IMG/VR virus record: IMGVR_UViG_3300045588_000108
Coordinates: 1-34,745 of that record
From: a virus
Strand: one strand, 5' to 3'
Length of the DNA stretch: 34,745 nt
Shown here: in pieces, positions 29,486 through 34,745 of the stretch
How positions within the stretch are numbered: the stretch's first letter is position 1
How the letters are laid out: every line of letters starts with the position of its first letter
Program-made: the position numbers and the translations under genes
The notes under the pieces: model-generated
What the model was told of the DNA's origin: nothing
The model's database searches: none
Seen by the model: the letters and a program-made list of their open reading frames with translations, nothing else

Positions 29486-29959
29486 TTAAATTGAGTTTTT
29501 CCATTCTACGACACCATCCAATGCCCTGATTATTTTTGATACTTCGAGAGGCGACATTGATTTTAAAGGCTTTTTAACTGGGCTTTTATTACTCTTTAAA
29601 AAGCGATTAAACCAGCCCAACATATCGGCAACTTCGCCCCATTTTCCGTTTTGAACCACTATATCGGCGGTGCGCAAATTGGCTTGTATTCGACGGTGTT
29701 GGGAGTTGCTATTATCGAACAATCCCCAGTTTACTTCCTGTGGTTCTGTACCCGTTTGCTGTTGCATTATTCTGATGGCTTGGGCTTGGGTAATGCTTGT
29801 TAAGCTCGTGCGGTTCACATCGCCTGTAACCCATTGTACCCATTCATTTTTTGTGCCCACTTGGTAGGCGCAGTTTTGCATTATGCGACTGGTTTGCCAT
29901 TTCAAAATGGGTAAATCATCGCCAATGACTTCGTTTGGTTTTACTTTAGTTGCTGTCAT
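29486..29959 (-). CDS. gp16/GemA-like early regulatory protein
   Basis: This 157-aa protein has a central motif WVQWVTGDVNRTSLTSITQA, then QAIRIMQQQTG and NSQHRRIQANLRTADIVVQNG, and ends MSPLEVSKIIRALDGVVEW. This resembles the DUF1018/Mu gp16 (GemA) class, early proteins that alter host gene expression or supercoiling in Mu. It overlaps the lipoprotein gene by 14 bases. Confidence 0.6.
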   Translation of the reverse strand: MTATKVKPNEVIGDDLPILKWQTSRIMQNCAYQVGTKNEWVQWVTGDVNRTSLTSITQAQAIRIMQQQTGTEPQEVNWGLFDNSNSQHRRIQANLRTADIVVQNGKWGEVADMLGWFNRFLKSNKSPVKKPLKSMSPLEVSKIIRALDGVVEWKNSI

Positions 29960-30170
29960 TGTGTAATCGTATTTTTTCTTCAGTAATTAACGAATCAACT
30001 AGGCGACACTGTTCTTTATAGCTTAAATCTTCTCTTACCTTCATAAGTTTTTCTAAGTATTCTAACTTTACTTTCTGCAACTCATATTGCTCAATTTGAA
30101 GCTCGACATTTGATTTTTTGCAACTTGCCAATGTCAGTACCAATACAGTAATTGTGATAATTTTTTTCAT
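29946..30170 (-). CDS. Small lipoprotein
   Basis: This 74-aa protein has a signal peptide with lipobox LTLASC (Cys17), then a basic helix (QIEQYELQKVKLEYLEKLMK). After processing about 58 residues would remain attached to a membrane, probably the outer one. A lipoprotein in the early operon suggests superinfection exclusion or envelope protection. It directly follows the tRNA-like element. Confidence 0.7.
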   Translation of the reverse strand: MKKIITITVLVLTLASCKKSNVELQIEQYELQKVKLEYLEKLMKVREDLSYKEQCRLVDSLITEEKIRLHNDSN

Positions 30171-30191
30171 TTTGTTGTTGTTTTAAATTTG

Positions 30192-30237
30192 CTCCCGAGG
30201 CAGGAATCGAACCTGCAAAAACCATTTTCACTCGGGA
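30192..30237 (-). ncRNA. tRNA-like minihelix (acceptor + T arm) between early genes
   Basis: On the minus strand TCCCGAG (30237-30231) pairs perfectly with CTCGGGA (30199-30193) as a 7-bp acceptor stem. GCAGG-TTCGATT-CCTGC (30216-30200) is a perfect T arm with canonical TTCGA loop, and position 8 is T. Between them are only 14 bases, TGAAAATGGTTTTT, able to form a 4-bp AAAA/TTTT mini-hairpin in place of the D and anticodon arms. The discriminator is G, followed by CAAA. It lies in the 83-base gap between the 68-aa gene and the lipoprotein gene. It could be recognised by RNase P/Z or be a shrunken phage tRNA relic. Confidence 0.7.
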
Positions 30238-30253
30238 AACCGAATTAACTAAC

Positions 30254-30460
30254 CTATTTTTTCGGGTTGTATGTGGCTTTCGTATGCTTTTTGAAAGCTT
30301 TGTTGTTAATTACTGTTTTCTTGTAATTATTGAAAGCATTGGATTCTTCATAAGTCAATTCCTGCCGTGCTATCCAATTGTCACTACCATCGTTGTACAC
30401 TTCCTTGCCGTTCACGCTGTAGCGTTCGTGATCTGTGATTGGTTCTATTCTTACGCTCAT
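30254..30460 (-). CDS. Small early protein, overlapping start
   Basis: This 68-aa protein (SVRIEPITDHERYSVNGKEV, then YNDGSDNW) has a short beta-rich start and a Lys-rich end (KKHTKATYNPKK). The ATG at 30460 lies inside the preceding membrane-protein gene in another frame, with a 77-base overlap. The sequence is well-formed and it fills the space before the tRNA-like element. Function unknown. Confidence 0.62.
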   Translation of the reverse strand: MSVRIEPITDHERYSVNGKEVYNDGSDNWIARQELTYEESNAFNNYKKTVINNKAFKKHTKATYNPKK

Positions 30461-33626: not shown

Positions 33627-34745
33627 TTACATTAATTGAGTATAGTCAAACTCTTGATCTTCCTCAGTGAGAACCGCTTCACTTACTTTCTTTTGATAGT
33701 TCGCGATGTCGGTTTTTTCTTTTTTAACTTTCTTGGAGTTGATGCCTTTTAGTTTTGGGTTTTTAAATCCGTAGCTTTCAGCAGTCATTTTGTGTTTTTC
33801 AAGGTTCGACTCCACTTTCGCCTCGGTTGAAATTCTAAGTTTTTTCGTGGCTTCGATTTGGTCTCTGTAATATTGTGCTTCCCACTCTTCTTGCTCTTGC
33901 TGTCCTCTGTGTATTTCAACTTTCGTCTCGGCAGCTCTTACAAATCTTAATCCTAGTGGCGTTTTCTTGTAGAGATAGATCAAACTCATATCGTCCGGGT
34001 CAAACTTGATGTGAAACTTTTGATTCACATTTTCAATATGCCAATCCTGGTCTACGGCTCTTGAATTTTCTTGATACACTACATAATCATACTGGATCGT
34101 CTTTTCTTTAAAACTGATGCCGCTTGAGTGGCACTGAATTGGTTGATTTCTCTCAATCCAAAAGAAGTCAACCATTTGAAACGGCGTTACTTTTGGACAG
34201 TCCGGATTTTCGCTTTCAAAATACATTTCAATTCTAGGCTTGCCCGTTTTTGGGTGAGTGGCTTGGTTCCATTCGTTGCGCTTTTGCACATATTGTGCTT
34301 TTAGTTCCGCGAAAGTTGGCAGTTTTTCAGTATTGGCAAGGATAAACTCCATATTGGCGTGGCTCGAAACCTTTTTGGATGTGATGTTTTGTCCAGAGTA
34401 GTTTGGCAATTGTGCCAAGAACTGGGTTTGGAATCTTCCAAATGCGCTCTCAATAGTTTTTGATTTACCATTATAAGGCTGTGTTTTAATGGCTAAATGG
34501 CTGATTTTATCAAAGAAACCACCTGCGTGAAGCTTCTTGTTACCGGAACCATTATCTAGCGATATTTGGTAAGGCCTGTGTTCTGAAACTTGAATGGCCA
34601 TTTTATACGCTTGGTATCCTGCCTCGTAATCTTCCTTCTCTGAAATGTGGTACCCTAAAAACACTTCGCTGTAAGCATCCATAACCTCATACACATTTAT
34701 CGTTTTCATTTTACCGGTTGCATCCTGATAGTAAAGGTTGATTTT
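33627..34745 (-). CDS. MuA-type DDE transposase (5' end outside window)
   Basis: The gene is partial: the frame runs off the window edge, with 12 codons visible upstream of Met at 34709. The RNase H-like catalytic core has the second Asp in SLDNGSGNK (like MuA Asp336) and the Glu in SKTIESAFG (like MuA Glu392). The first catalytic Asp, the N-terminal end-binding domains and the start lie beyond the edge. The visible part includes the following beta-barrel-like region and a basic C-terminal tail (KLKGINSKKVKKEKTD) that likely contacts MuB. It cuts and joins phage ends to target DNA. Confidence 0.9.
   Translation of the reverse strand, partial: KINLYYQDATGKMKTINVYEVMDAYSEVFLGYHISEKEDYEAGYQAYKMAIQVSEHRPYQISLDNGSGNKKLHAGGFFDKISHLAIKTQPYNGKSKTIESAFGRFQTQFLAQLPNYSGQNITSKKVSSHANMEFILANTEKLPTFAELKAQYVQKRNEWNQATHPKTGKPRIEMYFESENPDCPKVTPFQMVDFFWIERNQPIQCHSSGISFKEKTIQYDYVVYQENSRAVDQDWHIENVNQKFHIKFDPDDMSLIYLYKKTPLGLRFVRAAETKVEIHRGQQEQEEWEAQYYRDQIEATKKLRISTEAKVESNLEKHKMTAESYGFKNPKLKGINSKKVKKEKTDIANYQKKVSEAVLTEEDQEFDYTQLM

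Follow-up and report, generated by a model that had tools for sequence, protein, structure and literature searches.

The locus and its genes

The DNA analysed here, the window, is a stretch of 34,745 nucleotides that makes up the record of a Mu-like transposable phage, encoding a MuB-type transposition protein, a partial transposase (PHROGs 296 and 310) and a DUF3164 protein. The transposase gene, at 33627-34745, seems to be cut by the end of the record, with 360 aa versus 700 aa in L012. A similar layout is found in phage fF4 of Flavobacterium columnare, whose published description makes no mention of tRNA (PMC7761591). Between two ORFs on the minus strand lies a 46-nt tRNA-like element (30237-30192), on the same strand as both neighbours, 16 nt past the stop codon of a 68-aa ORF and 22 nt ahead of the ATG (30170) of a 74-aa ORF. 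In the direction of transcription, the features are the following:

30254..30460, minus strand: upstream ORF of 68 aa, a conserved early protein through which relatives were traced
30238..30253, minus strand: leader GTTAGTTAATTCGGTT, from the stop codon of the 68-aa ORF to the element, kept in the form GGTTAGTTAATTCGGTT in most relatives
30231..30237, minus strand: 5' strand of the acceptor stem, TCCCGAG, with an RNase P cut predicted just before 30237
30217..30230, minus strand: 14-nt connector TGAAAATGGTTTTT, which holds a GG matching G18-G19 of tRNA
30216-30212, minus strand: 5' strand of the T stem, GCAGG
30211-30205, minus strand: T loop, TTCGATT
30204-30200, minus strand: 3' strand of the T stem, CCTGC (the whole T arm spans 30200..30216)
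30193..30199, minus strand: 3' strand of the acceptor stem, CTCGGGA
30192, minus strand: discriminator G, followed by CAA at 30191-30189 (RCWA signature), with an RNase Z cut predicted after 30192
30171..30191, minus strand: A-rich trailer CAAATTTAAAACAACAACAAA, kept in relatives; after processing, the mRNA would have it as a 21-nt 5' leader
29946..30170, minus strand: downstream ORF of 74 aa, with a lipoprotein signal (Pfam LPAM_1)

The element thus reads TCCCGAG TGAAAATGGTTTTT GCAGG TTCGATT CCTGC CTCGGGA G. Both stems are perfect, the acceptor with 7 bp and the T arm with 5 bp; the T loop is canonical, and the 14-nt connector stands where a tRNA has its D and anticodon arms. The two perfect helices, the TTCGATT loop and the intergenic position on the strand of the neighbouring genes had been pointed out in the first-pass annotation of this DNA, and all of them can be read directly in the sequence. 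Other details of that annotation fared less well. The connector has the length described, whereas the AAAA/TTTT hairpin proposed within it is weak, being absent from the minimum-energy fold and paired in 87% of cells among relatives; the GG is a stronger feature of the connector than this hairpin. In the same way, the T at position 8 is present here and is not a conserved feature, with a C instead in roughly half of the 15 minimal elements described below.

The 68-aa protein belongs to no Pfam or PHROGs family, and none of the proteins in the annotated phage collection was a relative of it. Prophages carrying its gene were found in Flavobacterium genomes and in one Flavobacteriaceae genome, so that Flavobacterium is the likely host of the window phage.

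Comparison with tRNAs, terminators and chance hairpins

As a tRNA the element is incomplete, keeping the acceptor and the T arm with its canonical loop and lacking an anticodon arm with a 7-nt loop. ARAGORN called 0 tRNAs in the whole window, and the Rfam tRNA model (RF00005) gave 25.4 bits over 30192-30237, under its 29-bit cut-off. No Rfam family matched the window at its own cut-off; a weak match to the Plastid-ycf2 5'UTR on the plus strand at 30191-30237 (E 0.047, far below the cut-off) probably corresponds to the T arm read backwards. There is neither a T-run after the hairpin nor any terminator-like site near the element, which rules out an intrinsic terminator.

The suggestion that a random hairpin would hardly copy the T loop of a tRNA was borne out by a Markov simulation of 20 Mb, in which a perfect 7-bp acceptor combined with a perfect T arm, a TTCRANY loop and a connector of 12-14 nt is expected 0.010 times per window, against 1 observed. 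When connectors of 5-40 nt were allowed, the simulated expectation rose to 0.064 per window. An alternative hairpin between the TTCGG of the leader and the 5' strand of the acceptor was also considered and dropped, because TTCGG is unchanged while the acceptor differs (TCCAGAG in L021, TCCCGTG in L037).

Relatives of the element and covariation of its stems

Relatives were gathered by gene synteny, DNA patterns and a covariance model. The first two carried an element at the equivalent place, one of them with a compensatory change in the T arm, and the final catalogue comprises 45 distinct elements in Mu-like phages and prophages of Flavobacterium. In the genus, the covariance model matched in 13 of 399 genomes, two of these matches (L069 and L070) resembling tRNA-Leu; among 397 genomes of the wider family there were, besides the centre genome, weak matches only, two of which (L123 and L124) are tRNA-Leu. 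The element next to the 68-aa gene is missing in 12 of the 34 rows of related phages, and support in a tree of the 68-aa protein was too weak for counting the origins of the element classes.

As had been advised for checking the structure, the paired positions were followed in the relatives, where they are kept with compensatory changes. In ten minimal elements 96% of the cells are paired (100% in the T arm and 98.6% in the acceptor), both sides have changed in 4 pairs, and the covariation score lies above those of all 500 shuffles and all slid versions. The whole catalogue contains 15 acceptor sequences and 24 T-arm sequences, the acceptors including TCCCGAG/CTCGGGA, TCCTGAG/CTCAGGA, TCCAGAG/CTCTGGA, TCCCGTG/CACGGGA, CCGAGTG/CACTCGG and TACCATA/TATGGTA. 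The invariance of some letters in these 45 elements is partly by construction, because the parser accepted only elements with R-C-W-A, TTC.A as the core of the loop and 6 or more acceptor pairs. Freer tests are provided by a syntenic set collected with no requirement on the flank, by the covariation in the ten elements and by two half-blind searches for sites. In the first of these searches, sites were picked by the leader and the 5' acceptor only, and the matching 3' half was present in 17 of 25 distinct sites (16 detected by script plus L082, whose ATCGAAG loop was missed by its filter), versus 0 in the controls; the other 8 sites have no element. In the second one, where the T arm and trailer were used for picking, each of the 10 untruncated sites showed the leader and a fully pairing 5' acceptor. 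Altogether, a tRNA-like acceptor/T-arm fold is under selection between genes, as in a processing element.

Variable middles and exchangeable neighbours

Between these conserved ends, the middle varies from 12 to 108 nt over the 45 elements, while the ends and an early GG persist. The middles fall into classes of 12-14 nt (the minimal elements, n=15), 21-28 nt, 35 nt and 42-108 nt, the last with D-arm-like starts and odd or inserted anticodon regions. The smallest elements, of 43-46 nt, have no anticodon arm at all. Among the first 18 nt of the middle there is a GG in 44 of the 45 elements and in all 15 minimal ones, a figure never reached in 5000 shuffles. In mascRNA, two guanosines of the D loop form an elbow with the T loop that both RNase P and RNase Z recognise (PMC11693755), and this structure, together with the conservation of the GG, suggests that the connector may take the role of the D loop.

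The distance to the following gene is much less variable, with the start codon located in most of the 45 elements 21-25 nt past the acceptor (A72), after the conserved A-rich trailer. The genes themselves change: the elements precede 23 unrelated downstream families, one of them that of the 74-aa ORF, and follow 13 upstream families, with the class of the element and the downstream family assorting independently. L016 and L017 encode identical 68-aa proteins, yet the acceptors and middles of their elements differ.

Several longer forms deserve a description. L016 (5739-5843) and L059 (1505-1609) combine a D arm like that of tRNAs with an anticodon stem in which an extra hairpin of ~35 nt replaces the loop. 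The long elements of L018 (6436-6559) and L026 (7312-7435) share a conserved 93-nt middle, with a helix TGYCTTG/CAAGGCA formed by its two ends, and their downstream genes differ. In L068 (920-1730, minus strand of genome G134), three tRNA-like elements with middles of 24, 86 and 24 nt follow one another in tandem, together with a fourth of the transposase type described below.

The host side

All 26 distinct tRNAs of F. geliluteum have C74 and 24 of them carry A or T at position 75, so the R-C-W-A 3' flank of the elements, seen also in the syntenic ones found with no flank required, is that of the tRNAs of the host. As expected of a tRNA-like processing element, CCA is not encoded and the 3' flank is suited to RNase Z. 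One point speaks against processing, namely the missing second C of RCC(A) in the flank of the elements, although it is also missing from most native host tRNAs. In the hosts, genes were found for RNase Z, scoring above the family cut-off, and for a class-A RNase P RNA. A comparison with host tRNAs sharing the TCCCGAG acceptor, which had been recommended, found it in 0 of the 26 distinct F. geliluteum tRNAs, ruling out a copy of one of these host tRNAs.

A second class of elements before the transposase gene

In several of these phages, related elements occur directly ahead of the transposase gene, showing an acceptor of 5-6 bp, a usually short connector that nearly always contains the GG, and a T-arm hairpin, as in L038 (TCCCGC CACGGCTTTG CGTGGT TTCGAC ACCACG GCGGGA ACCA). 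They cannot be sought in the window, because the end of the record seems to cut its transposase gene. The motif was also present in 11 further viral contigs, and F. geliluteum was the only match to the pattern among 249 genomes of the genus and 296 of the order. Many of these elements directly follow AAATATAGTG, a possible promoter. With a putative promoter so often immediately upstream, they would have no need of a 5' cut.

Some of them occur in pairs. Two stand in tandem in L004, and L042 of Flavobacterium covae contains two (at 522 and 924) separated by 402 nt, with nearly identical leaders and an ATG after each element.

A probable processing signal and its alternatives

The structure, covariation, modularity, spacing, 3'-flank signature and host enzymes described above are best read as a portable processing signal, because the parts read by RNase P and RNase Z are kept and the decoding parts lost, while the distance to the start stays fixed and the neighbours change. 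In this regard, the first-pass hypothesis of an RNase P/RNase Z signal of the mascRNA type is favoured by the covariation, the GG, the host-like 3' flank and the start-codon spacing. Once transcribed, the element would fold into the acceptor/T-arm helix with an elbow between the D-loop equivalent and the T loop, and would be cut by host RNase P ahead of U1 and by host RNase Z behind the discriminator. These cuts would split the polycistronic early transcript, so that, regardless of the upstream gene, 21 A-rich nucleotides would precede the AUG of the downstream mRNA. For exchangeable genes, such an element could serve as portable punctuation or as a 5' insulator, with a possible benefit for translation. 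In F. johnsoniae, translation is favoured by an A at -3 and by little structure around the start; the mean leader length is 33 nt (PMC6847099).

We regard it as probable that the minimal tRNA mimic is such a cis-acting signal, at which cleavage by RNase P and RNase Z of the host would give the next gene a short 5' leader. Our confidence does not go further, because cutting by itself does not account for the 17-nt leader, for elements being exchanged so rapidly or for the second class close to putative promoters: the leader is conserved beyond the needs of RNase P, and the swapping of whole elements among close relatives is not required of a simple cut site. For the broader proposal the scales are about level, namely that anticodon-less tRNA mimics, swapped as modules, would give accessory genes (and, in the second class, the transposase gene) private mRNA 5' ends cut by the host, as a natural 5' insulator.

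The same fixed spacing of 21-25 nt would also suit a structure that stays uncut in the 5'-UTR, where a tRNA-binding host protein (EF-Tu, the CCA-adding enzyme, RNase Z or a tRNA-modifying enzyme) would bind the shape formed by acceptor, T arm and elbow and control the translation or stability of the next gene, as would the location of transposase-type elements close behind putative promoters. We find this explanation unlikely: one dedicated regulator is hard to reconcile with varied middles and acceptors and with 23 unrelated downstream families, and a host RCWA flank kept beyond the stem fits processing better.

Less probable still is a mimic that, once freed, would act in trans by occupying RNase P, RNase Z, the CCA-adding enzyme, EF-Tu or a tRNA-targeting defence protein. 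Neither a fixed distance to the start codon nor a conserved A-rich trailer or many downstream families would be needed for this role, even if every part read by those enzymes is kept and the fast acceptor swaps between near-identical phages could reflect an arms race. A decoy for an elongation factor or the CCA-adding enzyme had been put forward in the first-pass annotation, and it likewise fits the start-codon spacing poorly.

We give little credit to a boundary acting at the DNA level, as a conserved linker for gene exchange by recombination in which the tRNA shape would be secondary. Compensatory changes in acceptor and T arm and a conserved GG are constraints on RNA, needless for a linker, although leader and trailer are kept as sequence, the flanking genes vary on either side, and the class of an element is independent of its neighbour. 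A decayed phage tRNA gene, another early suggestion, is very improbable despite the near-complete D arms of some members and the tRNAs called by ARAGORN at two elements in L015. Decay would strike the anticodon domain and the acceptor/T arm alike, whereas here compensatory changes keep the acceptor and T arm paired and the anticodon domain is absent or substituted; selected ends flanking a freely varying middle, before so many unrelated genes, do not match a relic. A chance hairpin or a terminator, for which the presence of a stem is the sole argument, can be dismissed in view of the low simulated expectation, the homologous elements at the equivalent place in relatives and the lack of a T-run or terminator-like site.

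Known systems and meaning of the elements

In mitochondria, tRNA structures between genes mark the cuts in polycistronic transcripts, a system known as tRNA punctuation. The phage elements are also tRNA shapes between genes of a polycistronic transcript; the mitochondrial marks, however, are working tRNAs, and the phage mimics cannot decode. Plant mitochondrial t-elements and mascRNA are the closest known kind. The former, tRNA-like structures at mRNA ends, define the ends of transcripts through cleavage by RNase P and RNase Z (PMC11658184). Like the phage elements, whose cuts are predicted, they are tied to mRNAs and take no part in translation; they differ as homologues of tRNAs in mitochondria, whereas the elements described here are carried by phages in bacteria, shrink to 43-46 nt with no anticodon arm, and turn up repeatedly as a module, at a nearly constant distance ahead of 23 or more gene families. 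The mascRNA and menRNA of MALAT1 and MEN beta are substrates of RNase P and RNase Z and share with the phage elements, which are presumably cut too, the acceptor stem, the T stem-loop and the absence of decoding; their reduced D loop with two guanosines may have its counterpart in the connector with GG. They derive, in contrast, from mammalian non-coding RNAs and keep a long anticodon-like stem, which the minimal phage forms, located between coding genes, do not have.

Bacterial RNase P needs in vitro no more than an acceptor and a T stem-loop, as in the AT1 model substrates (PMC11143913). The joining of an acceptor stem to a T stem and loop is common to AT1 and the phage elements, although the former are designed in vitro and the latter are natural, with a connector containing GG and no encoded CCA. 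Phage transcripts processed by RNase P, as we propose for the present element, are also named in PMC11143913 (C4 antisense RNA, M3 RNA and T4 gene 32 mRNA); where they are named there, they figure as single cases, with no modular family, canonical T arm or RNase Z-type flank described. A search of the open-access literature found no similar elements in bacteria or phages.

If the cuts occur, the elements would represent a tRNA punctuation of bacteriophage mRNAs by mimics pared down to the parts read by RNase P and RNase Z, and their 45 natural variants, with middles of 12-108 nt, would offer a ready mutagenesis series for the requirements of tRNA-processing enzymes. They would also provide a compact natural isolation of the 5' leader of a gene from its upstream context, in a phylum that to our knowledge lacks Shine-Dalgarno sequences. 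Whether non-decoding tRNA mimics set bacterial mRNA ends becomes directly testable.

Two other loci can be mentioned. L019 (4052-4134) gave a weak match to the Rfam RT-17 RNA (32.7 bits, below the cut-off). In L002 (6774-8848), ORFs with repeated VPDW..QYKYYPWF stretches are followed by a reverse transcriptase-like ORF, an arrangement that looks like a diversity-generating retroelement.
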